Below, in pieces: positions 11,425-47,858 of a stretch of DNA of 57,160 nucleotides. The notes below the pieces were generated by a model that was given only the letters and a program-made list of their open reading frames with translations, made no database searches and had not been told where the DNA came from. The stretch comes from Fulvivirga sp. GTDB lineage: Bacteria; Bacteroidota; Bacteroidia; Cytophagales; Cyclobacteriaceae. Each line of letters opens with the position of its first letter. Positions within the stretch are counted from its first letter, which is position 1. Location: contig JANQLQ010000109.1 of the NCBI GenBank assembly GCA_028280565.1, positions 1 to 57,160 on the forward strand, read 5' to 3'. The position numbers and the translations under genes were made by a program.

Positions 11425-11595
11425 TCAATGGCATAACGATTATACTAAAAATTGCGGTCTTTTTGAAAGAAATTTATACCGGGCAGGTTTTAAGGACGTT
11501 ATAAATTTTTTTTTAAACAAAACGTCAACCCTTTTATAAGTTGTGTAGTCTTTAGGATCGAAAACGAATATACTTTCAAACAAAAACTCAAATTG

Positions 11596-13956: not shown

Positions 13957-13966
13957 AGACCTTAAA

Positions 13967-14800: not shown

Positions 14801-14807
14801 CCCTGCG

Positions 14808-14845
14808 CCTGGGGTGTTTTCCCGGCACCCCAGGTACATCTTTTT
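14808..14845 (+). terminator. Rho-independent terminator of the first receptor/DUF4249 pair
   Basis: CCTGGGGTG (14808-14816) pairs perfectly with CACCCCAGG (14826-14834) across a 9-nt loop and is followed within 6 nt by a TTTTT run. It separates the two receptor/lipoprotein pairs. Confidence 0.75.
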
Positions 14846-14971
14846 GGGCTCAACTTGCCAAGACTGTCAAGTACCTGGCCACGGTGTTAAACTTTCTTCA
14901 AATAATTGGAACAAAATAGTGCTACAAATGTCTATATAAGAAGTTTGACACCAACATTGAATCGGGTATTT

Positions 14972-17353: not shown

Positions 17354-17358
17354 CCGCC

Positions 17359-26067: not shown

Positions 26068-27417
26068 ATGGGCGATTCTTTTAAGATTTTTATTCTCGAG
26101 GACGATCTGTGGTATGCTGAGCTTTTGGAGCACTATTTGGCGATGAACCCGGATTATATTATTGAAAAGTTTACAACAGCCAATGAGTGTATAAAAATGC
26201 TCTATCAAAAACCAAATGTCTTGTGCGTTGATTATTCTTTGCCTGATATGAAGGGAGATCAACTCATTAAGAAGTTAGCCAATTCCCATGGTCATATCCC
26301 TGTCATATTGATTTCGGGTCAACAGGACATTCAAACCGCCATCGATTTGTTAAAGCATGACAATGTCCAGGATTATATTGTTAAGGATGATGATACTAAT
26401 GAACGGCTTTGGAAATCCATTATCAAAATAAGGGAAAGGGGAAACCTGGTAGAAGAAGTAGAACAACTCAGGGAAGAGCTGGGCAAAAAATATGAATTTG
26501 AAAACATCATCAAAGGGAAAAGCCCAGGGATCAGGCAGGTTTTTAACATCATGCAAAAAGCGTGTAGTAATAATATCACGGTATCCGTCTCTGGCGAGAC
26601 GGGAACGGGAAAAGAGCTGGTTGCCAAATGCATACATTACAATTCTCCGCGATCCAAAAAACCGTTTGTGGCCGTAAACATGTCAGCTATCCCTTCTGAA
26701 CTGGTTGAAAGCGAGTTGTTTGGACATGAAAAGGGTGCATTTACCGGGGCGCAGGCCAGGAGGATTGGAAAGTTTGAAGAAGCAAATAAGGGAACCATCT
26801 TTTTAGATGAGGTGGCGGACATGGATGTGGCCATGCAAGCTAAGCTCCTGCGCGTACTGCAGGAAAAAGAAGTGACGAGAGTAGGAAGTAATAACACGGT
26901 ATCGGTAGACGTAAGGGTTATTGTGGCTACACATAAAAACCTGGCGGAAGAAGTCAAGCAGGGAAATTTCAGGGAAGACCTGTATTTCAGGCTACTGGGG
27001 CTCCCTGTCAAGCTGCCTCCACTAAGGGACAGGAAGGAAGATATACTGGTGCTCGCCCAGCATTTCCTGGAAAGCTTTGCGAAAGAAAACAAAACGAAGA
27101 AAAAAACGCTGGGCAAAGAAGCCCGTGAAAAGCTATTGGCTTATGCTTTCCCGGGCAATGTCCGTGAATTAAAGGCAGTGATCGAGCTGGCCGCGGTCAT
27201 GGCAGATGAAAATGATATAAAGGTCGAGGACATTACTTTCCATTCCACGATATCCATCAAGGATTTAACCCATGCGGAGAACACATTGAAAGAATATAAC
27301 GGCATGATCATCCGCCATTTCTTGGAAAAATACAATGACGATATAGCACTGGTCGCCCAAAAGCTGGATATAGGTAAATCTACCCTTTATAAGATGATCA
27401 AGAGAGGAGATGTCTAA
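26068..27417 (+). CDS. Sigma54-dependent response regulator (NtrC type)
   Basis: Protein of 449 residues. Receiver at about 5-120 with acidic pair EDD, phospho-acceptor in LCVDYSLPDMKG, the Ser of ISGQ and the Lys of YIVKDD. AAA+ domain at about 145-375 with Walker A GETGTGKE, sigma54-contact loop GAFTGA, Walker B TIFLDEVADM and the arginine-finger region. C-terminal Fis-type helix-turn-helix at about 410-449 (DIALVAQKLDIGKSTLYKMIKRG). It activates transcription by sigma54 RNA polymerase after phosphorylation. The nearest candidate kinase is the hybrid kinase at 28760. A near-consensus sigma54 site lies at 31172. Its receiver shares the SGQ motif with the two single-domain receivers of this locus, suggesting crosstalk. 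Confidence 0.93.
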   Translation: MGDSFKIFILEDDLWYAELLEHYLAMNPDYIIEKFTTANECIKMLYQKPNVLCVDYSLPDMKGDQLIKKLANSHGHIPVILISGQQDIQTAIDLLKHDNVQDYIVKDDDTNERLWKSIIKIRERGNLVEEVEQLREELGKKYEFENIIKGKSPGIRQVFNIMQKACSNNITVSVSGETGTGKELVAKCIHYNSPRSKKPFVAVNMSAIPSELVESELFGHEKGAFTGAQARRIGKFEEANKGTIFLDEVADMDVAMQAKLLRVLQEKEVTRVGSNNTVSVDVRVIVATHKNLAEEVKQGNFREDLYFRLLGLPVKLPPLRDRKEDILVLAQHFLESFAKENKTKKKTLGKEAREKLLAYAFPGNVRELKAVIELAAVMADENDIKVEDITFHSTISIKDLTHAENTLKEYNGMIIRHFLEKYNDDIALVAQKLDIGKSTLYKMIKRGDV

Positions 27418-27619
27418 TTTTCTATTGCTGGCACCTGGCTAATATGCCACTCATTTTCTATGAGAGAAAATAGTCTCCCATAGAAACTGTATGCTATATG
27501 CTTTCAATACAACTCCCTGATAATTAGTGATTTATAAAAAGGATCAATAATTGCCGATACCTGTAATGGCCTGTCTTTTTCTTTTAAAACTAGGCAGGCA
27601 GAAATCAAAAACTACAGAT

Positions 27620-28747
27620 ATGAGGCCAAATGATGCAATGACTTTTTATTTTTCAACCGTAGAGGAAAGCCTTTCAGCGCCTGGCCTCAAAGAACGTTCA
27701 CCCGGAAGCACTTTGATGATTTTCGTTGCTGAAAAATCAAAACACGAGCTTACCCGCTTGATGCAGGGACTGGAGGAACGTGATATACCTTATTTTGGAG
27801 CCATTTTTCCAAAATTAATTTATGATAATGAACAATTGGAGCATGGTTTTGTCATCAATACCTTAGACCGGGTAGAAAGCATCCATGTTATTAAAGACCT
27901 CAATACAGGTCATATCGAAATACCGCACTATAATTTTTCCCGGGATGAGGGCCACGAGGTTTGTGCGATCACCTTTGTAGACGGGCTTACCTCCAATATT
28001 TCAAATTACTTATCTAAACTCTTCTCCATATTCGGGAATAAGATGAGTTATTTTGGGGGAGGAGCGGGGTCACTCTCTTTGACTCAAATGCCCTGTGTAT
28101 TTTCTAACCAGGGAATATACCAAGATGCGGCGGTGCTGGCTTTTCAAGAGGTCAAAAGCAACCTGTCTGTGAAACACGGCTGGGAAAAGATCCATGGTCC
28201 TATCGTAGCCACGAAAACCGAAAAAAATATCGTAAAGGAACTTAACTGGGAGAATGCCTTTGATGTGTACCAAAACATTGTAGAACAAGATTCTGGTATG
28301 AAATTCACGGGAGACAACTTTTTCGATATTGCCAAAGGATATCCTTTTGGTATGGTAAAAGAGTACTCCGAAAGTATCGTACGGGATCCTCTTTCACTGA
28401 ATGAAAATAAAGAACTCATTTGCGTGGGAGAAGTTCCCCAAAACTCGGTCCTGAATATTCTGAAAGGCAAAAAAGAAACGCTGCTGGAAGCTGCCACATC
28501 AGCCGCGGTAGCAGGCATAAACACCGATATACAGGCCAGGAGATGCCTGGTCATAGACTGTATATCACGCGTGTTATTCTTAAAAAATGATTTTGATCAA
28601 GAATTGAGCAACGTAAAACGTGTAATTAACAATAAATTTTCAGAAATTACCATTTCAGGAGCGTTGACCCTTGGTGAAATCTCTTCCTACGATGGAGGAT
28701 ACCTGGAGTTCTTTAACAAAACGATGGTAGTTGGTGTGTTTGAGTAG
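27620..28747 (+). CDS. FIST-domain sensor protein (NosP-like)
   Basis: Protein of 375 residues from the ATG at 27620 (ATG 27566 and TTG 27551 are also in frame but add a stretch without family character). The N-terminal FIST part has FYFSTVEESL, L-x-E-R-D-I-P-Y-F-G-A and FVDGLTSN with the glycine-rich YFGGGAGS; the C-terminal FIST_C part has DSGMKFTGDNFFDIAKGYPFGM and the VGEVPQNS region. FIST proteins sense small molecules; the Pseudomonas and Vibrio NosP members bind heme and NO and inhibit a hybrid kinase encoded next to them. Exactly that neighbour follows here after 12 bp. Heme binding is inference; I cannot assign the ligand residue with confidence. Confidence 0.82.
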   Translation: MRPNDAMTFYFSTVEESLSAPGLKERSPGSTLMIFVAEKSKHELTRLMQGLEERDIPYFGAIFPKLIYDNEQLEHGFVINTLDRVESIHVIKDLNTGHIEIPHYNFSRDEGHEVCAITFVDGLTSNISNYLSKLFSIFGNKMSYFGGGAGSLSLTQMPCVFSNQGIYQDAAVLAFQEVKSNLSVKHGWEKIHGPIVATKTEKNIVKELNWENAFDVYQNIVEQDSGMKFTGDNFFDIAKGYPFGMVKEYSESIVRDPLSLNENKELICVGEVPQNSVLNILKGKKETLLEAATSAAVAGINTDIQARRCLVIDCISRVLFLKNDFDQELSNVKRVINNKFSEITISGALTLGEISSYDGGYLEFFNKTMVVGVFE

Positions 28748-28759
28748 TACGTGGGTGGA

Positions 28760-30835
28760 ATGGATGGAAGTGGTGTAGTTACAGAGATATTCATGCTCTA
28801 TGAGCTTTCTATGGCAATTGGAAACTCATTGGTCTTTGAAGAGAATTGTCATGATTTTCTGAATGCCCTGATGGCAAAAAAGGAACTGGATAATACTTGG
28901 CTCTTTGAAAAAAAAGCCAAGCACTTCCAATTGTCCTATTCCATTCCCCAGGATCACAAGCTGATCGACCTAGGGTTTAATTTTGATAATTTCATCTCCC
29001 CGGCATCCATCGATCGCGGTAAGTATCCCGATGTATTTGACCAATTCGGTTTGCAGGGCGGAGCCTTAGCCATGTTTCCGCTGTCCCATTCGGGATTACT
29101 GGTCCTTTACTCTAAAAAAAGAGAAGTTTTTTCCACCAAAGAACTGAATCAACTGGCCCCATTGGCCAAAAAGTTTGGGATTTCATTAGAAGGCAGCAAG
29201 GTGCATGAGGCTTCAGTGAGCCAAAAAGATGAACTGGATAGGCTATATGGTGAATTATCCGAAACCAATAACCAGTTGATGACTGAAATTTTGATCCGAA
29301 AGGATTCGGAAGAGTCATTAAAATTAGCCAAACAAAAGGCGGAGGATTCATTGGAATTCAAACAGCGCTTTCTCGCCAATATGAGTCATGAGATCAGGAC
29401 CCCCATGAATGGGATTTTGGGGATGTCCAAACTGCTGCAATCGGCCGACCTGGACAAAAAAAATAAAATCAGGCTGGGTTCGATCAGGAGCTCTGCTAAA
29501 AACTTGCTCGTCATTATCAACGATATTCTAGACCTCTCAAAAATAGAGTCCGGTAAATTGGAGTTGGAAGAGATCGGCTTTGACCTAAAGAAAATGCTCG
29601 GTGAAATCATATCGAGTGTAGAGTACCTGGCGGCAGAAAAAGACTTAGTCATTGATGTGGAAGTACCCCCGGAATTAGAGGACCTGGTGATGATCGGGGA
29701 CCCGGTAAGGTTAGGACAAATACTCACCAACCTGGTGAGCAATGGGATCAAGTTCACCCAGGAAGGAAAAGTATCTATATCCTGCAAGTTGATCGATCCT
29801 CAAAGAATAGAGTTCGCCGTCTCAGATACAGGCATTGGAATTCCCGAGGAAAAGTTAAAAACCATATTTAACAGTTTTAGCCAGGCAGATTCGAGCACGA
29901 CACGAAAGTTTGGCGGAACGGGACTTGGATTAACCATCAGCAAACAGTTAGTAGAGCTTCACAAAGGAAAACTACACGTAAACAGCATCGAAGGCATAGG
30001 AACCCGGTTTCATTTTTCTATTCCCTTTCGGCGAGGCAGCATGGAAGACTTACCGGTATCGAAGCATACAACGCCGGGTAAATTAGACGTAAAGGGGCTC
30101 AATATCTTGCTTGTAGAAGATAATAAGATAAACCAAGTCTATGCCATGAGTGTTTTGGAAGAAGAAGGAATGGACCTGGTATTGGCAGAAAATGGTTTGG
30201 AAGCCATAGAGCTGCTAAGGGACAGACATGACTTCGATGTTATCCTAATGGACATACAGATGCCCATTATGGGGGGAGAGGAAGCCACTCAAGTCATAAG
30301 GACCGAGTTAAAGCTTTCTATTCCCATTATTGCCCTTACGGCTAATGCTTTAAATGGAGAGATGGAGAAATACTTGGACTGTGGGATGGATGCATATGTA
30401 TCAAAGCCGTTTGACGATACAGAGCTGGTAAGCGTAATAGCAAGACTCACCGACCGGCAACACAAAGCAAAACCTGCTGCAAAGCAAGACGTTGTTGAAG
30501 AAGAGCGATTGTACAGCCTTTCAAAACTTGAAAGGATATTCAAAGGCAAGCAACCACTTATTGACAATATGATCGATAAGTTCGTAGAGCAGGTGCCTAA
30601 AGACATGAACCTCCTTTTAGAGGCCTCTCGTGACAAAGATTATGCAAGGATAGGATCCATTGCGCATAAGATGAAGTCTTCCCTGGATGTCATGGGAGTA
30701 GAAAAAACCTACCACACCATCCGTTCGCTGGAAAAACATGCTCAAAGCAAAACCAACGTGGAGGAAATCCCCGGTTGGGTAAAAGAAATAGAAACAACGC
30801 TCACCCAATTATTTGAGCAACTGAAAAGGGTGTAG
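28760..30835 (+). CDS. Hybrid histidine kinase with receiver and Hpt domains (NahK-like context)
   Basis: Protein of 691 residues from the ATG at 28760 (an in-frame GTG lies at 28751). No membrane segment, so cytoplasmic. Residues ~10-145 form a GAF-like sensory region (LYELSMAIGNSL, GGALAMFPLSHSGLLVLYS), then a coiled coil, HisKA with FLANMSHEIRTPMNG (phospho-His ~210), HATPase with NLVSNGIKFT, DTGIGIP and GGTGLGLTIS, a receiver with LMDIQMPIMGG (phospho-Asp ~498) and KPF, and a C-terminal Hpt with AHKMKSS (phospho-His ~636). The full His-Asp-His relay could pass phosphate to the separate regulators nearby. It sits 12 bp after the FIST gene, so the FIST protein is its probable controller. 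No transmembrane sensor means the signal is cytoplasmic. Confidence 0.93.
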   Translation: MDGSGVVTEIFMLYELSMAIGNSLVFEENCHDFLNALMAKKELDNTWLFEKKAKHFQLSYSIPQDHKLIDLGFNFDNFISPASIDRGKYPDVFDQFGLQGGALAMFPLSHSGLLVLYSKKREVFSTKELNQLAPLAKKFGISLEGSKVHEASVSQKDELDRLYGELSETNNQLMTEILIRKDSEESLKLAKQKAEDSLEFKQRFLANMSHEIRTPMNGILGMSKLLQSADLDKKNKIRLGSIRSSAKNLLVIINDILDLSKIESGKLELEEIGFDLKKMLGEIISSVEYLAAEKDLVIDVEVPPELEDLVMIGDPVRLGQILTNLVSNGIKFTQEGKVSISCKLIDPQRIEFAVSDTGIGIPEEKLKTIFNSFSQADSSTTRKFGGTGLGLTISKQLVELHKGKLHVNSIEGIGTRFHFSIPFRRGSMEDLPVSKHTTPGKLDVKGLNILLVEDNKINQVYAMSVLEEEGMDLVLAENGLEAIELLRDRHDFDVILMDIQMPIMGGEEATQVIRTELKLSIPIIALTANALNGEMEKYLDCGMDAYVSKPFDDTELVSVIARLTDRQHKAKPAAKQDVVEEERLYSLSKLERIFKGKQPLIDNMIDKFVEQVPKDMNLLLEASRDKDYARIGSIAHKMKSSLDVMGVEKTYHTIRSLEKHAQSKTNVEEIPGWVKEIETTLTQLFEQLKRV

Positions 30836-31266
30836 ATCTTATGCTGACTACCCAACCCCGCATTTCCAAGTATTGAAGATTGCCGTTAAGGCAGAAGAAA
30901 AGATGGATAGATCAACCGAGAGTTTTGGAAATATCAAATCCGCATCAAACCGTAAAGTCAATGACCGGGTAGAGCAGGGCCAGGTTGGTCCCTACTGCCT
31001 TTTCCACTTGCCATGTATACCTCACAACCTTTTTTTACTCTTTCAAATCCTTGACACCTCTCCGCCACAGCACTCACTACCAAAATTTCAAATCGAGAAA
31101 AATTCTCTAGGAAAGAAAATGGAAACTATGTGATGATATTTAAATAATTGATTATCAGTGTTTTAACTAAATGGAACTCCTGTTGTAACTAGATAACTGT
31201 CCATGAAAACATGTGGCATCAAGGGTAAAAGCTCTTGGTTTTTATTGTCAAATAAAAGTAGTAAAG
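30836..31266. other. Intergenic region between the sensor kinase and the EPS-side receiver
   Basis: This 431-bp interval has only an 86-codon frame (30873) with no family character or credible start, which I reject. An imperfect hairpin AGGGCC/GGTCCCT at 30976-30993, followed by CTGCCTTTTCC, may terminate the kinase transcript. A sigma54-like promoter at 31172-31187 would start a new transcript into the EPS locus. Confidence 0.4.
31172..31187 (+). promoter_or_regulatory. Candidate sigma54 (-24/-12) promoter for the EPS locus
   Basis: TGGAAC-N5-TTGTA matches the consensus TGGCAC-N5-TTGCA at all but two positions, with correct spacing; the deviation at the usually invariant -12 C is a weakness. 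It is about 80 bp before the ATG of the single-domain receiver gene. A sigma54 activator gene lies 5 kb upstream, which makes the site plausible. Confidence 0.4.
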
Positions 31267-31704
31267 ATGAAAAAGAAAGAGCCATTAATATTTATAGTAG
31301 AAGATGACGCATTTGTCAATTTGATGATCTCTTCCCACTTATCCGACCTGGGATATTCAAAGGTGGAAGTGTTTGGATCCGGCGAAGAGGCTTTGGTCAA
31401 TAGGTATAAAATGCCTGGCATTGTGGTATGTGATTACCATTTAAGTGGAGACCTTGACGGGTCAGAAGTACTCAAAGAAATCAAAGCCTTTAACCCTGAT
31501 ATACATGTCATCATGCTTTCAGGCCAGGAAAAAATGGACGTAGCCGTTAACTCCCTAAAATATGGCGCTTATGACTATGTAGTAAAAGGAGATGGGGCTA
31601 TAGAAAAAGTAGGAAAACTAGTACAAAAGGCAGACGCCTTCAATTCCGCTTTGAAAAGCAATCGTTGGAAGAGAGTTTTTTCAGCGTTCATGTTCAATTT
31701 TTAA
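31267..31704 (+). CDS. Single-domain response regulator
   Basis: Protein of 145 residues from the ATG at 31267 (a GTG at 31213 is in frame but adds a non-homologous extension). A complete receiver: FIVEDD acidic pair, phospho-Asp in VVCDYHLSG, Ser in LSGQ, Lys in YVVKGD. No output domain follows; the last ~13 residues (NRWKRVFSAFMFNF) are basic and aromatic, perhaps an amphipathic membrane-touching helix. It probably acts by protein interaction or as a phosphate shuttle or sink for the hybrid kinase. It is the first gene after the kinase and 39 bp before the EPS export gene, so a role in EPS control is likely. Confidence 0.85.
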   Translation: MKKKEPLIFIVEDDAFVNLMISSHLSDLGYSKVEVFGSGEEALVNRYKMPGIVVCDYHLSGDLDGSEVLKEIKAFNPDIHVIMLSGQEKMDVAVNSLKYGAYDYVVKGDGAIEKVGKLVQKADAFNSALKSNRWKRVFSAFMFNF

Positions 31705-31743
31705 CGCGAAGCCCTGCTAAGCTAATACTCAAATTTCTGTAGC

Positions 31744-32499
31744 ATGCGTACTAAAAAGTCATTTTTTGCATCTGCCAGGCCTATCATCATCATAAGCGTT
31801 GTATGCCTGTTTTCCAGTTGTGCCACGCAAAACCTTTTTCACCGGGAAAACACAGCTTCTTATGCTTCATTAGATAGCCTGGCACTGCAAGGAAGCGCCC
31901 AGCATACGATCAGGCCAGACGACAAGATCAGTGTAAGCATCTGGAATCATGATGATCTCAGCATAGGGTCCATTTTTGGTATATACAATTCCAATGAAGT
32001 CTATGGTAAATGGGTATTGGTGGACCAGGCGGGCTACATCAGCTTGCCTAAGATAGGAAGGGTCAACGTGAACGGGATGACCGTCACAGCGTGTGAGATC
32101 AAATTAAGAACAGCGTATGCCGAATACATCAGGGAGCCGATCATCGTCGTCAAAGTATTGAACAGGGAAGTAACTGTGCTCGGCGAGGTCAAATCACCCG
32201 GTGTTTTTTTATTGGAAAAGGAAAAAAATACATTGTTTGAGACGATCGGCAGGGCAGGAGGGCTTGATTTTTATGCCAACAAAAAAGAGGTGAAGTTTAT
32301 CAGGAACGAAAAGGAGTACCTACTGGACCTGACTAAAATGGAAGATTTTGAACAAAACAACCTGGTACTCCAGTCCGGTGACATCATTTACATCCCCACA
32401 CGAAAGGGCAAAACACTGGATAAGAAAGCCCCAACCTTGCTCCCTGTCGCAAGTATATTGACAACCGTAGTGGTGATCCTCACCTTCATAAACAATTAA
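31744..32499 (+). CDS. Polysaccharide export lipoprotein (OPX/Wza family)
   Basis: Protein of 251 residues. N-terminal signal with lipobox-like FSSC (Cys ~27). The Poly_export motif follows (IRPDDKISVSIWNHDDLS), then a SLBB-type region (REVTVLGEVKSPGVFLLE, TLFETIGRAGGLDFYANKKEVKFIR) and QSGDIIYIP. A C-terminal hydrophobic segment (ASILTTVVVILTFINN) forms an extra membrane helix. OPX proteins form the periplasmic and outer-membrane channel for EPS. The Wzc-like protein is encoded 7 bp downstream, the usual partner. It lacks the large C-terminal barrel of E. coli Wza, as is normal for short Bacteroidota OPX proteins. Confidence 0.92.
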   Translation: MRTKKSFFASARPIIIISVVCLFSSCATQNLFHRENTASYASLDSLALQGSAQHTIRPDDKISVSIWNHDDLSIGSIFGIYNSNEVYGKWVLVDQAGYISLPKIGRVNVNGMTVTACEIKLRTAYAEYIREPIIVVKVLNREVTVLGEVKSPGVFLLEKEKNTLFETIGRAGGLDFYANKKEVKFIRNEKEYLLDLTKMEDFEQNNLVLQSGDIIYIPTRKGKTLDKKAPTLLPVASILTTVVVILTFINN

Positions 32500-32506
32500 T
32501 CCCGTC

Positions 32507-34816: not shown

Positions 34817-36057
34817 GAAGTAGAATATCAGCATACAAACGCTATATACCACTACTGGACCAAGGGCTGGTGAGTGGAGGGAACTTCCTCGTTGGGGTTT
34901 TGCTTACCCGGAGCCTGGGACTGGATTTTTACGGGGAGTTCACACTAGCCTGGTTAATTGTTCTATTTGCCGCCAGTGTCCAGCAAGCCGCCATACTTAA
35001 TCCCTTGTACACGTTCGCTCCTGCCATGAAAGGTGAGGATAAGAAAGACTACCTAGGAGATCTAACGGGCTTCCAGTGGATGTTTGCGGCATTTGCAGCA
35101 GTTGCTTGTTATATCATCCTTCGCCTCAATGCTTGGTTAGTCCCTTCATGGGAGCTAACTTCATCTTCTTTGTGGCTTCCATTCACGCTTTTCACTTTCC
35201 TGGTACATGACTTTTTCAGGAAGCTAAATTATGCGAAAGATAAAGTATTAAAGTCCTTTTTAATGGACATCATGACCTATAGCGTGCAGGTCGTTTGCCT
35301 TTTGATCGTAAGTCACCGGGGAACCCTCGATTTAAGAACTGCACTGATCATCTTGGGCGTAAGCTTTTCTGTTTCCATTCTCTTTTCATGGAGAGAACTA
35401 ACCAGGGCGTTACTTTCCGGGAGAAAGTGGTCATCGATCATAAGCAAGCACTGGGATTTTTCCAAGTGGCTGGTGGGAACTGCGCTCCTGCAATGGTTCT
35501 CGGGCAATATTTTTATCCTAGTCGCAGCAGCCCTTCTTTCCCCCTTAGCCGTAGGCGCCATTCGGATTATACAAAATATTATGGGACTACTGCATGTGTT
35601 GTTCCTGGCTTTTGAAAACATTGTCCCACTTCGTGCCTCCAAAATATTCCACGAAGATGGCCTTCGATCCCTTGGAATATACCTCGGGAAAATGCTCGTG
35701 AAAGGCGGGCTAGGTACCCTAGCGATAGGAGGGACGGTCGCCTTATTTGGAAAGGAGATCATGGACCTGCTGTATGAAGGTCAACACATAGAGTTTGCCT
35801 ACCTGCTCTACGGTTTTGCCGGGCTGTATGTATTAGTGTTTACGGGTACCATTATCCGGTTTGCCATTAGGACGCTGGAACAGACCCGATTGATTTTTAT
35901 CTCCTATATCATCAGCGCGCTGGCCAGTATGCTGCTGGCCAAACCCATGATCGCTCATTTTGGGATCAATGGGGTTATCATAGGATTGGTGCTCAGCCAA
36001 CTCATCATACAAGCTTATTTCATCTATTCACTAAGAACGTATTGGAAAAAAATATGA
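34813..36057 (+). CDS. Polysaccharide flippase (Wzx/MOP-type)
   Basis: Protein of 414 residues with about twelve hydrophobic helices through the whole length and no soluble domain, matching the oligosaccharide flippase (MATE/MOP) fold. The start has the usual L-x-x-G-L-V-S-G-G-N-F-L-x-G-x-L-L-T-R pattern and an early Y-G-E-F motif. It would move polyprenyl-linked repeat units across the inner membrane. It is translationally coupled on both sides: its ATG overlaps the Wzc-like stop (ATGA) and its stop overlaps the glycosyltransferase ATG (ATGA). Confidence 0.85.
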   Translation: MRSRISAYKRYIPLLDQGLVSGGNFLVGVLLTRSLGLDFYGEFTLAWLIVLFAASVQQAAILNPLYTFAPAMKGEDKKDYLGDLTGFQWMFAAFAAVACYIILRLNAWLVPSWELTSSSLWLPFTLFTFLVHDFFRKLNYAKDKVLKSFLMDIMTYSVQVVCLLIVSHRGTLDLRTALIILGVSFSVSILFSWRELTRALLSGRKWSSIISKHWDFSKWLVGTALLQWFSGNIFILVAAALLSPLAVGAIRIIQNIMGLLHVLFLAFENIVPLRASKIFHEDGLRSLGIYLGKMLVKGGLGTLAIGGTVALFGKEIMDLLYEGQHIEFAYLLYGFAGLYVLVFTGTIIRFAIRTLEQTRLIFISYIISALASMLLAKPMIAHFGINGVIIGLVLSQLIIQAYFIYSLRTYWKKI

Positions 36058-38490: not shown

Positions 38491-38627
38491 AATTAATTCT
38501 CAAAAAGAAAAAAACTCTCCAAAAGAGACCCTTGCAAAACTAACATCATTCATAAACACCAGTAAAACAGTCACTTATGCGTAAGGAACGATATTGGAAG
38601 ATCGAGTAATAGCGTAAAGAAACAATT

Positions 38628-41114: not shown

Positions 41115-41204
41115 TGACTCCATCAAAAACGATAGAAGACACACGGAAGAGCTTTCTATCCTGCTAACCTGCACAACTAAAGTATGGATTAAAAAGCACA
41201 TGAG

Positions 41205-41915
41205 ATGAAAAGGATATTAGAAGTCATTATACAAAAGAGGAATCCGAATTTCCAATTCGACCCCTCTATAACCCTTTGGATGTTAATAGGCCTATTTTTG
41301 GAAAAAGGCTGGTACATCGTGAGGGGTTGGAAAAGGCTACTGCATTTCAAAAAGCCTAACATGCTGATGCTGGGAAGAAAAGTAAAATTCTTCCATGCTG
41401 CCAATATGGAACTAGGGCGATGGGTCAAGGTCGAAGATTATGTCTACTTGAATGCCTTGGGAAGAGGGAAACTGGTTCTCGGGGATCATGTAGGCATTGG
41501 AGCTTTTAGTCGCATCATTATTTCCACCTCTTTTAACCATATCGGGAGTCACATCACCATAGGGAATAATGTAGGGATCGGGGAATATGCCTACCTAGGC
41601 GGCGGTGGCGGCCTGGAAATAGGGGACGACTGTATCATCGGGCAGTATTTTAGCTGCCATCCTGAAAACCACCATTTTGAAGATGAAAAACTATTGATCA
41701 GGGAACAAGGGGTGAGCAGGCAAGGGATTAAAATCGGTAAAAACTGCTGGATCGGTTCTAAGGTCACCATACTGGATGGGGTGACCATTGGCGATCACTG
41801 CGTGATCGCGGCTGGCGCTGTGGTCACTAAAAATATGCCCTCCCATTCCGTTATCGGAGGTGTACCTGCCAAAGCATTAAAATCAATCCCGGTAAACTTC
41901 AAAGAAGTTGCCTGA
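41205..41915 (+). CDS. Hexapeptide-repeat acyltransferase
   Basis: Protein of 236 residues. An N-terminal helix region (1-60), then a left-handed beta-helix of imperfect [LIV]-G-x-x-x-x repeats (about 80-215): LGDHVGIGAFSR, IGNNVGIGEYAY, IGDDCIIGQ, IGKNCWIGSKVTILDGVTIGDHCVIAAGAVVTK, closing with GGVPAKALK. This is the pattern of acetyl-CoA dependent sugar O-acetyltransferases of the WcaF/NodL/LacA kind, with His residues in CHPENHHF available as catalytic base. It probably adds acetyl groups to the EPS repeat unit. It follows the three-part fusion by 90 bp. Confidence 0.88.
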   Translation: MKRILEVIIQKRNPNFQFDPSITLWMLIGLFLEKGWYIVRGWKRLLHFKKPNMLMLGRKVKFFHAANMELGRWVKVEDYVYLNALGRGKLVLGDHVGIGAFSRIIISTSFNHIGSHITIGNNVGIGEYAYLGGGGGLEIGDDCIIGQYFSCHPENHHFEDEKLLIREQGVSRQGIKIGKNCWIGSKVTILDGVTIGDHCVIAAGAVVTKNMPSHSVIGGVPAKALKSIPVNFKEVA

Positions 41916-41936
41916 TCACACGAAATTAAAAAAATT

Positions 41937-43208
41937 ATGAAAACGATATTAGCAACTACTTATGCCCTCAACCCCTACAAAGGCTCAGAAGACGGTATGG
42001 GATGGAACTTCGTACGTCAAATGGCTAAAAACAACCGAGTCTATGCCGTGACCCGGAAAAACAACCGGGAGCACATAGAAAAGTATCTCTTGGAACATCC
42101 TGGCCCGGCTTATCATAATATTTCTTTTCTCTATTATGATCTGCCGTATTGGATGAGATTTTGGAAAAAAGGTTCAAGAGGAGCCATGTTGTATTTCTAC
42201 CTGTGGCAGTTCTTTCTACCTGCTTTTATAGGGCTAAAAGGCATCAAATTTGACATCAGCCACAATGTCAACTTTCACAATGACTGGACTCCCAGCTTTC
42301 TCTGGGTATTGGGCAAGCCGATGGTGTGGGGACCTATTGGCCATCACCCCAAGATCCCGGCGGGATACCTCGATCCATTTTATGGTAAAAAAGCGCTGTG
42401 GAAGGACTTAGCGACTTGGAGCCTCAAGCAGGTTTTTTGGAAGCTTGATCCGTTCTTGAAACTGACACTGAAAAACGCCCGTCACATATGGGCCATGAAT
42501 TCTTCTGTAAAGGAAATTTTCCCAAAATACGCTGGTAAAATAAGCTTGATGCCCTCGGTAGCATCAGAGCATGTTACATGGACTGACCGGCCGAGAGAGG
42601 GTTTCCATGTGCTCTCCATTGGGAGACTCGTTGCTTTGAAAGGGTTTGACCTCACCTTAAAAGCTTTTGCCCGGTTTTATTTTGACCTTCCTATCGAAAA
42701 TCGTAAAAATGTAATGCTCCACATCATTGGCGATGGCCCGGAAAGAGAAAGACTATGGGATCTTGCTCAAAAACTTGGTGTAACCAAGGCGGTCATCTTT
42801 AAAAAATGGATGGACCGATCCCAGCTCACAGAATATTATGCCCGGTCAAAGGCTTTTTTATTCCCCTCTCATGAAGGCGCTGGTATGGTAGTAGCGGAAG
42901 CGATGTCACATGGACTCCCGGTGCTTTGCTTGGATAACTACGGCCCTGGTGAATTTATTACGAATGAATGCGGCTTCAAAGCACCCGTTTCCAACCCGGA
43001 AGCGACGGTATGTGATCTGGCCAAGGGCCTTAACCAACTATATGGTAACGAAACTCTGTTTGACCGGATGTCAAAAGCGGCGCGAAAAAGGTTCGACGAT
43101 AAATTTGACTGGAACACGCGGTCACCAAGATTAGACCTTGTTTATAACAAGGTATGTCAAAAAAATATAGGAGCTGAAATGGACTATACCTTGATAAATC
43201 ATGCATAA
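41937..43208 (+). CDS. Glycosyltransferase family 4
   Basis: Protein of 423 residues, GT-B fold. N-domain starts TILATTYALNPYKGSEDGMGW, the substrate-binding P-Y-K-G-S-E-x-G motif of a GT4 subgroup; the C-domain has VLSIGRLVALKGFDLTLKAF, IGDGPERERL and the catalytic SHEGAGMVVAEAMSHGLPVL. Cytoplasmic sugar transferase of the EPS pathway, 21 bp after the acyltransferase and overlapping the next glycosyltransferase by 8 bp. Confidence 0.9.
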   Translation: MKTILATTYALNPYKGSEDGMGWNFVRQMAKNNRVYAVTRKNNREHIEKYLLEHPGPAYHNISFLYYDLPYWMRFWKKGSRGAMLYFYLWQFFLPAFIGLKGIKFDISHNVNFHNDWTPSFLWVLGKPMVWGPIGHHPKIPAGYLDPFYGKKALWKDLATWSLKQVFWKLDPFLKLTLKNARHIWAMNSSVKEIFPKYAGKISLMPSVASEHVTWTDRPREGFHVLSIGRLVALKGFDLTLKAFARFYFDLPIENRKNVMLHIIGDGPERERLWDLAQKLGVTKAVIFKKWMDRSQLTEYYARSKAFLFPSHEGAGMVVAEAMSHGLPVLCLDNYGPGEFITNECGFKAPVSNPEATVCDLAKGLNQLYGNETLFDRMSKAARKRFDDKFDWNTRSPRLDLVYNKVCQKNIGAEMDYTLINHA

Positions 43209-44346
43209 GACGGTATATAAAATCGTATGTTTTCACCTGCTCAATGATTTTAGTGGCAGCCCAAAGGTCTTATCACAAGCCATTGATGGATTAGTACAGG
43301 AAGGCTATACCGTTGACCTGTTTACCAGCCGCAATGGGGACAAGGGCTTTTTATCAGGTAAAAAGGGGGTAAACTATCACTATTTTTCTTACCGATGGAG
43401 CCGGTTCAAATGGGTCACTCTTTTCAATTTTTTGTGGTCACAACTGAATTTGATGTTCCGGTTGCTCCAATATAGGAACCAGCAGGTCATCTTTTATGTG
43501 AACACCGTATTGCCCTTCGGGGCGGGCCTGGTGGGAAAGCTTATGGGAAAACGTGTCGTCTATCACATTCATGAGACATCAATCAAACCTGAACTTTTCA
43601 AGCGTTTTCTCTTCGGTATTGCCCATTGGGCCGCCGATCAAAAGATACATGTATCACGGTACTTACTGGACCAAGAAGAAACGGATACCGAAAGGTCTGA
43701 AGTGATTTACAATTCTTTATCCCAGGATTTCCTGGAAAAGGCAAATAAAGCGAAGGTTGTGCGCTCGCAATCCTTTACGGTATTGATGTTATGCTCTTTA
43801 AAAGCCTATAAAGGAGTGATAGAATTTGTCCGGGTTGCACAGCAGCTCCCCGGGTTACAGTTTGAATTGGTATTAAATGCCAGCGAAGAAGAGATCCATA
43901 CGTTCTTTTTGCATGAAGATATACCGGGTAACCTGGCATTGTTTCCCTCACAGTCCGATGTTCACCCATTTTACCGAAGAGCTAGCTTGGTCCTTAACTT
44001 ATCGCTCCCGGACCAATGGGTAGAGACCTTTGGTCTAACGGCGCTGGAAGCCATGAGTTATGGATTACCTGTCATTGTGCCACCTGTAGGGGGTATCACA
44101 GAGTTGGTCAACCATGGCGAGAACGGGTACCAAATGGATCCAAGAGATGTCGGGGCAATCGTTGAAAAAATTCATGAACTGGAAGCCAGTAAGGATCTTT
44201 ATCACCGGCTTTCTGAAAACGCTTTAAGCTTTTCAAAGGATTTCTCACCGGGGAGATTCCATCAAAAAATCAAACATGCCCTTTTCTCTACGCGAGAAAT
44301 ACATCTCGATGGGAGATTGAATGAACATTATGAAATACTTAAATAG
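43201..44346 (+). CDS. Glycosyltransferase family 4
   Basis: Protein of 381 residues. The N-domain has FHLLNDFSGSPKVLSQAI with G-S-P-K-V, a donor-region motif, and VVYHIHETS; the C-domain has LMLCSLKAYKGVIEFVRVAQQL and the E-x7-E catalytic region as ETFGLTALEAMSYGLPVIV. It starts inside the end of the previous gene (8-bp overlap), so translation is coupled. Specificity unknown. Confidence 0.88.
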   Translation: MHKTVYKIVCFHLLNDFSGSPKVLSQAIDGLVQEGYTVDLFTSRNGDKGFLSGKKGVNYHYFSYRWSRFKWVTLFNFLWSQLNLMFRLLQYRNQQVIFYVNTVLPFGAGLVGKLMGKRVVYHIHETSIKPELFKRFLFGIAHWAADQKIHVSRYLLDQEETDTERSEVIYNSLSQDFLEKANKAKVVRSQSFTVLMLCSLKAYKGVIEFVRVAQQLPGLQFELVLNASEEEIHTFFLHEDIPGNLALFPSQSDVHPFYRRASLVLNLSLPDQWVETFGLTALEAMSYGLPVIVPPVGGITELVNHGENGYQMDPRDVGAIVEKIHELEASKDLYHRLSENALSFSKDFSPGRFHQKIKHALFSTREIHLDGRLNEHYEILK

Positions 44347-44393
44347 CTGTATATCAGTAATTTAATTCTTTTGGTTTAATTTTTAACACGACT

Positions 44394-45623
44394 ATGGTAA
44401 ACAAGGGAATCATGAGGAAGAAAAAGATAGCGATCATAGGCACAGCGGGAGTTCCATCAAGGTATGGAGGATTTGAAACCCTGGCTCATCATTTGGTTAA
44501 AAATTTGGAGGAAACCTTTCACTTGTCAGTATACTGCAGCAAGGTCCTTTATAAAAAGGAAGAAAGAGTTAACTATTGGAATGGAGCGAGGCTTATTTAT
44601 TTGCCCTTCAGCGCAAATGGTATACAAAGCATCATTTATGATATAGCATCTATGATCCATGCGTTATTCTTTGCTGACGTATTGATCGTCTTGGGCGTGT
44701 CGGGAGGTATTTTTATCCCGGTAATTAAGCTTTTTACTCGCAAAAAAGTGATTGTCAACATCGATGGTTTAGAGTGGAGACGGGATAAGTGGTCTAAACC
44801 GGTAAAAAAGTTCTTAAAGCTTTCAGAAAGGCTGGCGGTAAAGTTTTCGGATGCCGATGTTACCGATAATGCCGCCATCAAGCGATACACAGCCATGTAC
44901 TATAAAACACTGAGCCACCAAATTGAATACGGTGGTGATCACTGTCAGAAAGTAAAACTTATCAAATCGGATTATGTAGAATACGATTTCCTTAAATACC
45001 CCTATGCTTTCAAGGTATGTCGCATAGAGCCAGAAAACAACGTGCACATTATTCTTAACGCTTTTGCCGCGTTACCTTCTAAGACTTTAGTGATGATCGG
45101 AAACTGGCAAAACAGTGCGTATGGCATCGAACTTTTTGAAAAGTTCTCACAGTTTGAAAACATTCACCTGTTAGACCCCATCTACGACCAGCAAAAGCTG
45201 GACAAAATACGGTTTAACTGCTATGTGTATCTCCATGGGCACAGTGCGGGTGGTACTAATCCTTCCCTAGTAGAAGCTATGTATCTTAATCTACCCGTTA
45301 TTGCTTTTGATGTATCATACAACAGGGCAACTACCGAGGACAAAGCGCTCTTTTTTAAAGACGAGTCGTCGCTGCAACAGTTATTGGAAACCACTTCCCT
45401 AAGTCAATACACGACGGTCAAAAAAGCGTTGAAATTGGTGGCCGATAAAAAATACACGTGGTCCATCATTGCCCAAAAATATGCACAGCTGGTCTATTGT
45501 TTTGACCATGACTACCAAAAAAGTTCCGTTCGTTCGAAGATCTCCAGGTTAGAGGAAACCTATTTGATCGGGCAGGGCCTGGGGCACTTAAAAAGATCAA
45601 GGCTCTTTTATGAAGAGTTGTGA
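44394..45623 (+). CDS. DUF1972-type glycosyltransferase (rhamnosyltransferase-like)
   Basis: Protein of 409 residues (a second Met at 44412 is an equally good start). The DUF1972 N-domain is plain: KIAIIGTAGVPSRYGGFETL, then GVSGGIFIPVIK and VNIDGLEWRRDKWSK. The C-domain is GT4-like with HGHSAGGTNPSLVEAMYLNLPVIAFD. Characterised members include capsule transferases of the Cps2F type, some of which transfer rhamnose; the sugar here is inferred only. It is 47 bp after the previous gene and 32 bp before the sugar-phosphate transferase. Confidence 0.9.
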   Translation: MVNKGIMRKKKIAIIGTAGVPSRYGGFETLAHHLVKNLEETFHLSVYCSKVLYKKEERVNYWNGARLIYLPFSANGIQSIIYDIASMIHALFFADVLIVLGVSGGIFIPVIKLFTRKKVIVNIDGLEWRRDKWSKPVKKFLKLSERLAVKFSDADVTDNAAIKRYTAMYYKTLSHQIEYGGDHCQKVKLIKSDYVEYDFLKYPYAFKVCRIEPENNVHIILNAFAALPSKTLVMIGNWQNSAYGIELFEKFSQFENIHLLDPIYDQQKLDKIRFNCYVYLHGHSAGGTNPSLVEAMYLNLPVIAFDVSYNRATTEDKALFFKDESSLQQLLETTSLSQYTTVKKALKLVADKKYTWSIIAQKYAQLVYCFDHDYQKSSVRSKISRLEETYLIGQGLGHLKRSRLFYEEL

Positions 45624-45655
45624 GCAAAATTTTTTGAAAGCAAAAACATAGAGTC

Positions 45656-46777
45656 ATGAAAATTTGGATACCACCTGTGATATATTTTGCTGGGATTTAT
45701 GCAATGTTTATCTCTATACTTATTACACCCTTTATTATTTATTGGACAAAAAAGAAAAAGCTGCTGGATACTCCAAACCACCGGGCTTCACACATAATCC
45801 CAACGCCTACACTAGGAGGCGTTGGAATATTCATCGCTTCTGTTAGCTCCATCCTGACGTGGTATTGGGGCCAAATGACATTTCCTTCTGAAGTGCCTGT
45901 TTTTATAGGTACAATTACGGTTCTTTTTATAGTAGGCCTCAGGGATGACCTGGTCGAGATAAGAGCTTCTCGTAAGCTCTTCATTCAGCTTAGTCTTTCG
46001 TTCATTATCGCGTATTCCGGGATACGGATCACAAGTTTGCACGGATTATTAGGCATTTATGAAATAAATATTTTTTATCAATACGCCCTGACCATCCTCG
46101 TGATTGCCGGTATTACAAATGCCCTCAACCTTCTTGATGGAATTAATGGCTTGGCAGGAGGTATTTCTTTTATTAACCTCGTCGTCTTTACGCTGTTGTT
46201 CCTGCAAAACGAAAATTTGGCTTTTGCCATCGTTGCGGCGAGCTTAGCAGGCGGGGTTCTTGGATTTTTGAGGTATAATTTTAACCGCGCCAAAATCTTT
46301 ATGGGAGATACCGGCTCCTTGGTGCTTGGTTTCAGCCTAGCGGTATTGGCCATCAAGTTCTTACATGTAGGGAGTCATAATGGCAACCCATCTATGATCA
46401 TCGTAGTAGGTATAATGATACTTCCCGTTTTTGATACGATCCGGGTGTTTGTCCAAAGGATAGTAAGCGGAGGCTCACCTTTTAAAGCAGACAAGACCCA
46501 TATTCACCATTTATTACTCAAACTAGGCTTATCACACCTTGGGTCATCTTTGGTCTTGTATGCGGCCAACTTAGCCTTGATCGGACTTGCCATAATACTC
46601 CATAAAACGAGTGTGGACCTAAAGTCATCAATGGTTGTGATCGTCATCCTTGCCACCTGGCTGACAGAATTGATCACCATAGTTAAGTTAAGCAGATCCA
46701 GCGGCGAGCATAAAAAGCTCCTCCACATAGAACAAGAGCTGACCGCACAAAATGTATTGTTGAAGAAAAATGTGTAA
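45656..46777 (+). CDS. Polyprenyl-phosphate sugar-1-phosphate transferase (WecA/TagO/MraY family)
   Basis: Protein of 373 residues with about eleven membrane helices. Family signatures in order: HIIPTPTLGGVGIF, the metal-binding Asp pair GLRDDL, NALNLLDGINGLAGG, FMGDTGSLVLGF, and the donor-recognition loop KTHIHHLLLKLG. It starts repeat-unit synthesis by moving a sugar-1-phosphate (often a HexNAc) onto undecaprenyl phosphate at the inner membrane. Being the first step, it is a natural control point, and it is followed immediately by a membrane-anchored receiver and an H-NOX gene, apparently in one operon. Confidence 0.93.
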   Translation: MKIWIPPVIYFAGIYAMFISILITPFIIYWTKKKKLLDTPNHRASHIIPTPTLGGVGIFIASVSSILTWYWGQMTFPSEVPVFIGTITVLFIVGLRDDLVEIRASRKLFIQLSLSFIIAYSGIRITSLHGLLGIYEINIFYQYALTILVIAGITNALNLLDGINGLAGGISFINLVVFTLLFLQNENLAFAIVAASLAGGVLGFLRYNFNRAKIFMGDTGSLVLGFSLAVLAIKFLHVGSHNGNPSMIIVVGIMILPVFDTIRVFVQRIVSGGSPFKADKTHIHHLLLKLGLSHLGSSLVLYAANLALIGLAIILHKTSVDLKSSMVVIVILATWLTELITIVKLSRSSGEHKKLLHIEQELTAQNVLLKKNV

Positions 46778-46781
46778 TAGG

Positions 46782-47264
46782 ATGAAAAGGAAAATAAAAA
46801 TAGCGATCATAGAAGATGATGAATTCTTCGCAGAATTATTGTACTGGAAGCTGGGGCAAAACAAGCAATACGAAGTGACTGTTTTTAATGATCCGGATAC
46901 CTTCTTAAATACCCCGGCTAAATCTCATGATGTGGCTGTGATAGATTATCATTTGGGAAATAGCCATTATAATGGTTTGGATATCGCCAAGAGAATTAAG
47001 AATGTGCCCAAGATTTTCATATCCGGTCAAAATGACATCGTATGTGCTCTAAACATGATAAAGGAAGGTGCTGCCGTAGATTACATTAATAAAGCATCTG
47101 CTTCACTAGATAAAATCGTCATGAGCACAGACAGTATTGTAAAACGAATGAACGCAAAGCACAAATTATCATGTATAGAGAAAGAACGCAAGAAAATGCT
47201 TGGTCGTCTATCTTGCATGGCGCTGATTTCTATCTTAGTTTTAATAGTTTCTTTACTATTTTAA
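46782..47264 (+). CDS. Response regulator receiver with a C-terminal membrane anchor
   Basis: Protein of 160 residues from the ATG at 46782 (ATG 46770, overlapping the previous gene by 8 bp, is also possible). Receiver features: IIEDDE acidic pair, phospho-Asp in VIDYHLGN, Ser in ISGQ, Lys in YINKAS. After a basic linker (KERKKMLGR) the protein ends in one strongly hydrophobic segment (MALISILVLIVSLLF), so it should be tail-anchored in the inner membrane with the receiver in the cytoplasm. No output domain exists. It lies between the sugar-phosphate transferase and H-NOX genes. I infer that it contacts the EPS machinery when phosphorylated. Confidence 0.85.
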   Translation: MKRKIKIAIIEDDEFFAELLYWKLGQNKQYEVTVFNDPDTFLNTPAKSHDVAVIDYHLGNSHYNGLDIAKRIKNVPKIFISGQNDIVCALNMIKEGAAVDYINKASASLDKIVMSTDSIVKRMNAKHKLSCIEKERKKMLGRLSCMALISILVLIVSLLF

Positions 47265-47291
47265 ATCTATATTTCCTGTAAAGTTGCAACT

Positions 47292-47858
47292 ATGCATGGC
47301 TTAATTTTTCAAAAACTTCAAGACTTTGTTATAGATATTTCTTCAGGAGAGACATGGTTGAAAATGAAAAAAGAGGCGGGTTTAGAAGATGTAATATTCT
47401 CACCTACCCGGAAATACCCTGACGAATATATTGAAAAGTTTGTAGCATTGGCTCAAGATCATTTTGGATTGGAAAGAGACGATGTATTGGAAGCCTTTGG
47501 TAAACACATGGGCCCAAAGCTCATCCAGCTTTTCAACTTTACCATCGTCCCGGGATGGACAGCGCTCGAAATCATTGAGAACACGGAAGAATACATCCAC
47601 AAGACCCTGAAAACGGCGGATCCCAACGTGGATACGCCCAAGCTTGTGGTTACCAGGATCTCAGGCAATGAACTCAAACTCGAATATAACTCTCCGAGAA
47701 AGATGATTGCCCTGGGCATAGGCATTGTCAAAGCCATTGGAGAAGCATTTGGCGAACAGCTAACCATTACTCGGGAAGATACCGACGAAGGGACCACCCT
47801 GGTGATAAAAAAACAACTTGGACACGCTTGGACTGCACGGCCACAATCCACCATGTAA
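47292..47858 (+). CDS. Stand-alone H-NOX heme sensor, probably NO-selective
   Basis: Protein of 188 residues, the usual size for an independent H-NOX domain. The N-terminus MHGLIFQKLQDFV is family-typical. Heme contacts fall one position after their T. tengcongensis counterparts: proximal His103 (102), Pro116 (115) and the Y-x-S-x-R motif Tyr132, Ser134, Arg136 (131/133/135). The distal pocket lacks the Tyr needed for O2 binding (position 141 is Leu, corresponding to Tyr140), so NO selectivity is predicted. H-NOX proteins usually control a histidine kinase or cyclic-di-GMP enzyme encoded beside them; here the neighbour, 27 bp away, is a membrane-anchored receiver in an EPS operon. Confidence 0.93.
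   Translation: MHGLIFQKLQDFVIDISSGETWLKMKKEAGLEDVIFSPTRKYPDEYIEKFVALAQDHFGLERDDVLEAFGKHMGPKLIQLFNFTIVPGWTALEIIENTEEYIHKTLKTADPNVDTPKLVVTRISGNELKLEYNSPRKMIALGIGIVKAIGEAFGEQLTITREDTDEGTTLVIKKQLGHAWTARPQSTM

Follow-up and report, generated by a model that had tools for sequence, protein, structure and literature searches.

The window considered here, the whole stretch of DNA that was analyzed, is a contig of 57,160 nucleotides from Fulvivirga sp. that harbors an EPS locus with candidate nitric oxide (NO) sensors of two unrelated families, FIST and H-NOX, at its two ends. At this type of locus in other Bacteroidota, a slot between an NtrC-type regulator and a kinase is filled by FIST in some genomes and by H-NOX in others, so that a single sigma-54/phosphorelay EPS module has had unrelated candidate NO-sensor cassettes docked onto it. 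Such docking supports control through the FIST-kinase arm, and suggests that nitric oxide controls slime making at this locus type. The explanation that we favor, and regard as fairly probable, is that the FIST-kinase pair couples NO to NtrC phosphorylation and EPS transcription, with H-NOX being a separate 3' addition.

Organization of the locus

Between positions 26068 and 47858, on the + strand, the order is NtrC-type regulator, FIST, hybrid kinase (His-Asp-Hpt), receiver, Wza/Wzc/Wzy EPS locus, WecA-type initiator, receiver and H-NOX. The individual features are:

26068..27417, +, NtrC-type response regulator (Pfam REC and sigma-54 AAA, 1.4e-69; GAFTGA present)
27638..28747, +, FIST protein, candidate NO/heme sensor, NosP-like but under the NosP cut-off (Pfam; invariant HGW motif)
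28751..30835, +, hybrid histidine kinase (Pfam HisKA-HATPase-REC-Hpt)
31171..31187, +, degenerate sigma-54-like site ATGGAACTCCTGTTGTA, outside the strict pattern
31267..31704, +, REC1, stand-alone receiver 5' of Wza (Pfam REC)
31744..32499, +, Wza-type polysaccharide export protein (Pfam)
32507..34816, +, Wzc-type chain-length/kinase protein (Pfam)
34813..36057, +, presumed flippase (Wzx), from position alone
36042..37208, +, glycosyltransferase family 4, GT4 (Pfam)
37171..38490, +, Wzy-type polymerase, Wzy_C (Pfam)
38628..41114, +, P828, kinase-like protein of 828 aa, marker for the EPS locus type
41205..41915, +, hexapeptide-repeat acetyltransferase (Pfam)
41937..45623, +, three glycosyltransferases, 41937-43208, 43201-44346 and 44394-45623 (Pfam)
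45656..46777, +, WecA-type initiating sugar-phosphate transferase (PF00953)
46770..47264, +, REC2, receiver with a C-terminal hydrophobic tail, overlapping WecA (Pfam REC)
47292..47858, +, stand-alone H-NOX (Pfam HNOB, 1.2e-28; H103, P116, Y132-x-S134-x-R136)

Pfam matches confirm the layout given in an earlier note on this DNA, with FIST and a hybrid kinase ahead of the EPS locus and H-NOX at its end. The same note called the Wzx/Wzy locus complete, which holds for Wza, Wzc, Wzy, the initiator and the glycosyltransferases, all present as profile matches, but the flippase candidate has no Pfam or NCBIfam match at 0.01. A PDB sequence search with P828 returned nothing at 0.1. FIST_N (8.6e-22) and FIST_C (3.3e-21) are both matched within the ORF 27551-28747, although the ATG at 27638 is a likelier start than the listed TTG at 27551; for REC1, similarly, the ATG at 31267 is likelier than the listed GTG at 31213.

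The WecA and REC2 genes share 8 bases, and a gap of 27 bases separates REC2 from H-NOX on the same strand. A single transcript for these three genes is therefore plausible, in keeping with the apparent operon that had been proposed; the gene beyond H-NOX (PGI) is on the opposite strand. The gap between the kinase and REC1 is 377 to 431 bases, depending on the start chosen, and hence the sensor and EPS genes are not necessarily one operon. Scans of the window for sigma-70 promoters (36 versus 33.2 in shuffles) and terminators (21 versus 17.2) were uninformative.

The NtrC-type regulator and sigma-54 sites

GAFTGA is the motif of NtrC-type sigma-54 activators, and the regulator of the window combines it with REC and AAA domains; rpoN is present in the window's genome. 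The regulator has no Pfam HTH match at 0.01, and its C-terminal sequence is Fis-like by eye. An NtrC gene is found in 16 of the 18 fetched loci that are not cut near P828. A sigma-54-like pattern, picked after a first look at the data, lies 5' of the receiver/Wza head in 8 of 20 loci, as against 5 of 495 other genes (P 1.3e-9) and none of 24 NtrC genes (P 7e-4). The window has no strict site before its receiver/Wza genes, and over its whole length matches to the sigma-54 consensus are no commoner than in shuffles.

The candidate sensors

As in NosP proteins, the FIST of the window contains both FIST domains and is adjoined by a histidine kinase (28751-30835), but it scores only 38.2 bits against the NCBIfam NosP equivalog, the cut-off of which is 450. 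None of ten further FISTs reaches this cut-off, and nine kinase-linked or EPS-linked FISTs range from no match to 71.5 bits; a lone FIST elsewhere in the window's genome is nearer, at 248.9 bits. The HGW motif is invariant in both alignments (11 and 20 sequences), and a PDB sequence search with the FIST profile gave nothing at 0.1. EPS-linked FISTs (23 of 124 rows) are scattered over the FIST tree with 16 changes, at least 12 of them forced by starred branches, both FIST trees being quick trees with a long-branch warning and the second using the longest stretch per locus. A grouping of the window FIST with Flavobacteriaceae FISTs had a support of 95 in the first tree, was unstarred in the repeat and is not relied on.

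H-NOX proteins are recognized by a proximal histidine, a conserved proline and a YxSxR motif. All are present in the window protein (H103, P116 and Y132/S134/R136) and invariant across 12 aligned H-NOX sequences, and the match to Pfam HNOB is 100.6 bits for a cut-off of 25.5. A kinase lies next to H-NOX in G200, G064, G158 and G206, which is the pairing seen with HnoX and HahK, whereas the window H-NOX has no kinase alongside. Recent transfer of this gene was considered and dropped, as its GC of 0.44 and GC3 of 0.47 are ordinary for the locus.

Linkage of sensors to the EPS locus type

A sensor-blind search with P828 located further loci of this EPS type in 26 other genomes, all of Bacteroidota. 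A FIST gene is no more than 20 kb from P828 in 10 of these and an H-NOX gene in four, where chance would give 0.15 and 0.09 genes, under a null of random placement and independent genomes, with several linked genomes belonging to one genus and the 20-kb limit having been picked after a first look at the data. Within that distance fall 10 of the 15 FIST genes and 4 of the 11 H-NOX genes of the 26 genomes. Sensor-linked loci span 10 of 19 genera, and H-NOX is found at the locus type in four other genera. Absence of the sensors from relatives, which the earlier note took as speaking against its proposal, is seen in 12 of the 26, although for three of the 12 the contig is cut close to P828.

It is difficult to reconcile these counts with an ordinary EPS cluster that has sensors nearby by chance. 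From the H-NOX side linkage is rare, with EPS markers within about 10 kb in 3 of 55 loci fetched for H-NOX, but the excess of linked genes makes chance proximity very improbable.

The gene orders reveal how the sensors are placed. G748 has the order of the window, NtrC-FIST-HK-rec-Wza, and G792 has WecA-NtrC-FIST-HK. In G200 the order is NtrC-HNOX-HK-rec-Wza, and in both G064 and G001, the latter fetched for its H-NOX and not through the P828 search, it is NtrC-HNOX-HK-x-rec-Wza. Other loci are arranged differently: the FIST-kinase pair of G405 and G331 sits amid glycosyltransferase genes while NtrC accompanies a different kinase, G155 has FIST and kinase in a stretch that lacks NtrC, and the H-NOX-kinase pair of G158 and G206 is elsewhere than between NtrC and its kinase. 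In the 10 kb read of G208, no EPS genes adjoin the H-NOX-kinase pair, and this candidate was set aside.

That the FIST and H-NOX pairs are common modules which any regulated locus may acquire, or that the FIST ligand is something other than NO, so that NO is not the EPS signal, is unlikely, if worth keeping in mind. FIST was originally put forward as a domain for small ligands, and such a view accommodates both the distance of the window FIST from the NosP model, to which the lone FIST of the genome is closer, and the P828 genomes with neither sensor nearby. Yet two unrelated families replace each other in a single slot of one EPS locus type, NO sensors are the best-known members of both, and 23 of the 80 named FIST loci have H-NOX as well.

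The two-sensor arrangement itself is another matter. The window alone, among 27 P828 genomes, has both sensors within 20 kb of P828. The congeners G142 and G036 possess the EPS locus and lack both genes in their genomes; FIST matches occur in 4 of 15 genomes of the genus, that of the window included, but for the other three the stretch that was read contains no EPS genes, and H-NOX is absent from all three congeners searched. Conservation of the double arrangement among these genomes was thus rejected, and the suggestion that the sensors provide different thresholds or opposite signs gains no support from conservation. In three loci of another EPS type (L178, L212 and L214), both sensors and EPS markers lie inside the 20-kb stretch fetched. 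Mutual exclusion of the two families was also considered; there is no overlap outside the window, and the numbers are too small for such a claim.

In the tree group of the window H-NOX (support 86), a kinase is directly adjacent in 2 of 25 genes, so conservation does not back a role for this H-NOX at the locus. It could well be a chance neighbor that acts elsewhere, perhaps with a distant kinase or as an NO sink, and we rate this only a little below an even chance, its being the one double case among P828 genomes pointing the same way. Its place close behind REC2 on the strand of the initiator argues against this, as do the H-NOX genes at P828 loci in other genera and the H-NOX of G158, which is also at a glycosyltransferase end, albeit in convergent orientation and accompanied by a kinase and a receiver of its own. 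A chance neighbor would leave the favored explanation of the FIST arm intact. The broader link of NO to EPS is supported by recurrent linkage and slot exchange in distant Bacteroidota, though this does not extend to the H-NOX arm of the window.

A proposed model for control of the locus

In the FIST-kinase explanation, a sigma-54-dependent NtrC-type regulator would switch on a conserved Bacteroidota EPS locus, receiving phosphate from the hybrid kinase through His-Asp-Hpt steps. At about half of the loci, a putative gas sensor of a soluble, heme-type family, either NosP-like FIST or H-NOX, stands beside a kinase, and each apparently arrived with its own. In the window, NO on FIST would change kinase activity, then NtrC phosphorylation and finally EPS transcription. 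This model builds on the gene content, linkage, sensor exchange, intact motifs and rpoN described above, while we infer that the sensors bind heme and NO, that phosphate is transferred, that the promoter of the window is controlled in this way, and which direction the effect takes. The orphan H-NOX would have been added separately, at the 3' end. Should it be active here, its most likely target is the same kinase or REC2, and it may provide feedback made only while the operon is on, both of which are guesses.

A bolder version has two levels of control, with FIST, kinase and NtrC setting transcription and H-NOX, via REC2, setting WecA activity. H-NOX would come last on the same transcript, beside a hydrophobic-tailed REC2 and an adjoining WecA. 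We think this version improbable; if true, the two heme sensors would act as one slow and one fast arm, each with an NO threshold of its own.

Relation to known systems

The NosP system of Vibrio cholerae acts inside quorum sensing and is not known to lie beside the EPS genes. In it, the FIST-type NosP, in combination with NO, inhibits a hybrid kinase; LuxU, an Hpt protein, and LuxO lie downstream, with a link to biofilm (PMC11237717, PMC7595309, PMC8738867). NosP-VpsS-LuxU-LuxO resembles the window in pairing a FIST-type sensor with a hybrid kinase. In Vibrio fischeri, H-NOX inhibits a kinase that feeds, via Hpt proteins, the response regulator of a polysaccharide locus (PMC12369376, PMC7595309), and the syp regulator is sigma-54-dependent according to a title cited in PMC12369376. 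The window is like this HnoX-HahK-SypF(Hpt)/LuxU-SypG route in leading from sensor, kinase and Hpt to a sigma-54-type regulator of a polysaccharide locus. On the published outline, however, hnoX-hahK is its own operon feeding SypF and SypG, whereas in the window sensor, kinase and NtrC are beside the EPS genes, the kinase has a built-in Hpt, and the locus type, which occurs in Bacteroidota, carries either FIST or H-NOX as its sensor.

Legionella pneumophila has Hnox1, Hnox2 and NosP, two unrelated NO sensor families with non-redundant functions in one genome; they are in three separate operons, with c-di-GMP outputs for NosP and Hnox1, and the cited passages name no EPS locus (PMC11237717). 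In the NosP-NosK-NosR system of Burkholderia pseudomallei, the FIST protein gene adjoins the kinase gene, and the sign of the NO effect on NosP-associated kinases is noted to vary among species (PMC12570481). Its reported output is a degenerate HD-GYP regulator, in contrast to the sigma-54 activator of the window. A single-domain receiver, EpsW, acts on EpsZ, the initiating transferase of the Wzx/Wzy EPS pathway in Myxococcus xanthus (PMC12802240); EpsZ is described as a large monotopic transferase, whereas the window encodes a WecA-type enzyme beside a hydrophobic-tailed receiver. FIST genes near hnox have been noted in one H-NOX group (PMC8738867, section 10), and the neighborhood as such is therefore already in print in that section.

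Implications

The open-access titles and abstract openings listed for NosP, H-NOX and EPS topics contain no report of this locus, nor of NO being tied to slime production in Bacteroidota, the connection that the FIST-kinase explanation would make. The exchange of two unrelated heme-sensor families in one EPS slot provides independent genomic evidence on FIST sensing: Bacteroidota FIST proteins that fall short of the NosP model may detect the kind of signal that H-NOX does. The extent to which FIST proteins in general sense NO thereby becomes directly testable.

Organization of the locus and its candidate sensors

The EPS genes of the window form a single-strand locus in which two candidate NO sensors, a NosP-like FIST protein and an H-NOX, lie at opposite ends:

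26068-47858, all + strand, EPS locus
5' part: NtrC-type regulator, FIST, hybrid kinase (HisKA, HATPase, REC, Hpt), receiver, Wza, Wzc
Middle: presumed flippase, glycosyltransferase, Wzy, P828 (828 aa), hexapeptide transferase
3' part: three glycosyltransferases, WecA-type initiator, second receiver, H-NOX

The gene order and content given in the earlier note are upheld, except for the identity of the flippase, which no family model in Pfam or NCBIfam confirms. The stand-alone receivers (31267-31704 and 46770-47264) bracket the EPS genes. P828, a kinase-like protein (38628-41114), seems to be a fusion of a thymidylate-kinase-like P-loop domain and a region with an aminoglycoside-phosphotransferase-like motif, HxDxxxxN ... 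DWE, recognized by eye; a PDB sequence search at 0.1 returned zero relatives. Divergent from the locus lies a secreted FG-GAP/ASPIC protein of 2160 aa with a Por secretion tail (19440-25922), and at 11593-18264 a pair of TonB-plug receptor and DUF4249 protein occurs twice in succession.

The window, 57,160 bases, is an entire contig of a 9.05 Mb genome, which encodes one H-NOX and three FIST proteins; a second of these FIST proteins (C314) likewise adjoins a kinase. The genome also contains rpoN, and the NtrC-type regulator of the window has the GAFTGA motif. Residues 1-162 of the window H-NOX align with the solved Alr2278 H-NOX, and H103, P116 and Y132-x-S134-x-R136 are invariant in 12/12 aligned, hand-picked sequences. 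Both FIST domains are present in the FIST protein, whose HGW motif is invariant in alignments of 11 and of 20 relatives; the histidine is, at a guess, the heme ligand. Among FIST reading frames longer than 300 aa from the fetched loci, counted with duplicates, the wider motif HG-x(0-5)-W occurs in 125/145 with an adjoining kinase versus 3/7 without. By the NCBIfam NosP model the window FIST is not a NosP (38 bits, cut-off 450), and none of the 10 other FISTs tested passes this cut-off: of nine linked to a kinase or to EPS genes, the best scores 71.5 bits and the poorest gives no hit, and the window genome's stand-alone FIST reaches 249 bits.

Candidate sensors near P828

A sensor-blind search with P828, which marks the locus and has no evident sensing role, covered 395 genomes at phylum level and 291 at order level. 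It retained 26 genomes beyond the window, every match having an E value of 5e-44 or better; weaker partial matches (G203, G306, G266, G476, G571, G594, G598, G754) were excluded. Profiles grown from window proteins, with a Pfam check on part of them, were used to annotate 21 of the 26 neighbourhoods, the remaining five being represented by match coordinates only.

Leaving the window genome aside, a Pfam search of the 27 genomes found 11 H-NOX and 15 FIST genes. Four of the H-NOX genes (G064, G158, G200, G206; 0.09 expected, P 1.6e-6) and 10 of the FIST genes (G155, G331, G405, G433, G589, G695, G718, G748, G777, G792; 0.15 expected, P 2e-17) are no more than 20 kb from P828. The null, random placement, ignores kinship and makes these P values too small. 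Even so, the excess is large. Counted per genus (n=19), FIST linkage occurs in six and H-NOX linkage in four. In the comparison with relatives that the earlier note had proposed, one or other sensor is linked in 14/26 genomes and neither in 12/26 (G036, G142, G159, G179, G195, G208, G219, G242, G272, G354, G402, G458; the contig is broken close to P828 in G179, G208 and G272).

The slot between NtrC and its kinase

NtrC is present in 16/18 fetched P828 loci not cut near P828, and missing from G155 and G402. Gene order was read in linked genomes other than G433, G589, G695 and G718. The window and G748 share the order NtrC-FIST-HK-rec-Wza (HK, histidine kinase; rec, receiver), G792 has WecA-NtrC-FIST-HK, and G777 has WecA-NtrC-FIST, where its contig ends. 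H-NOX takes the same position in G200 (NtrC-HNOX-HK-rec-Wza) and in G064 and G001 (NtrC-HNOX-HK-x-rec-Wza; G001 was included for its H-NOX), and G142 and G036, of the window's genus, have WecA-NtrC-HK without a soluble sensor. Other arrangements occur: a FIST-kinase amid glycosyltransferase genes, with NtrC paired with a different kinase (G405, G331); a FIST-kinase with no NtrC seen in the annotated locus (G155); an H-NOX-kinase divergent from NtrC-kinase (G206); and a convergent H-NOX-kinase-receiver at the glycosyltransferase end, with NtrC at the opposite end (G158).

Among kinases beside H-NOX, those of G200 and G064 have an HNOBA domain and that of G158 lacks it; it is also absent from the kinases paired with FIST in G748, G792 and the window. 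This suggests that FIST and H-NOX each come with a kinase of their own. On quick trees with long branches, EPS linkage of FIST (23/124 rows) requires 16 changes, at least 12 on starred branches, and the EPS-linked H-NOX proteins are placed as G200+G064+G001 and as G206, both within one starred group, as G158, and as the window.

The sigma-54 consensus, with GC at -12, underlies two promoter scans. With weighted scoring, 10/20 receiver/Wza heads have their best sigma-54-like site between 39 and 50 bases upstream. A stricter pattern, fixed after that result, matched 8/20 heads versus 0/24 NtrC genes and 5/495 other genes of the same loci. The window head lacks the strict pattern; the closest candidate, at 31171, reads GT where GC is expected at -12.

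Two candidate sensors at one locus

Both sensors had been noted as flanking the EPS genes; among the 27 P828 genomes, the window alone has the two of them near the locus. Both accompany EPS markers of another type in L178 (G382) and in L212 and L214, two Winogradskyella MAGs. FIST and H-NOX are co-present in 23/80 named FIST loci, and in Flavobacteriaceae, Roseivirga and Algoriphagus the typical order is rec-HNOX-HK-FIST-HK-small Hpt-like protein-receiver; compact operons with the candidate sensors side by side include L198, L201, L202, L241, L262 and others. EPS markers lie within about 10 kb in 3/55 loci fetched for H-NOX and in 4/24 unnamed and 11/80 named loci fetched for FIST, low counts that speak against a general sensor-EPS rule.

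The window H-NOX (tree row L089) groups with that of G104 (support 97) inside a larger 25-gene group (support 86), only two members of which directly adjoin a kinase. Two members have a single-domain globin-like gene, recognized by eye, downstream of a stand-alone H-NOX (L074:10579-11016, L076:10315-10773). The link of H-NOX to EPS in the window genome is possible but unproven.

The receiver after WecA

The gene of the second receiver in the window overlaps that of the initiator, and the protein has a hydrophobic C-terminal tail. Of 14 fetched P828 loci in which WecA was recognised, two have a tailed receiver after it (G219, G208), as does L251, so this is a minority feature independent of H-NOX. 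The receiver before Wza, by eye, is tailed in 7/15 relatives compared; that of the window is not. At L178:14887-16035 a receiver is clearly fused to an initiating sugar transferase (PF00072 + PF02397), adjoining NtrC-FIST-kinase and H-NOX-kinase; the receiver match barely passes in L214 (30.5 bits against a cut-off of 30.2) and falls short of it in L212. Myxococcus has a phosphorylated single-domain receiver, EpsW, that acts as a stimulator of the initiating transferase EpsZ (PMC12802240). With this precedent, a second, post-translational NO arm acting through the receiver after WecA would be thinkable, as the boldest and an improbable reading.

Probable control of EPS by NO

NO strengthens or relieves NosP inhibition of the kinase depending on the species (PMC12570481), so its effect on the window EPS could be of either sign. 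We lean modestly towards the main explanation as a whole, our confidence being slightly lowered because some linked loci do not share the NtrC slot (G405, G331, G155, G158, G206). Most likely, the FIST-kinase-NtrC arm would render the EPS locus of the window NO-responsive, and its manner of control is proposed to resemble that of HnoX-HahK-SypG in V. fischeri and NosP-VpsS-LuxU-LuxO in V. cholerae.
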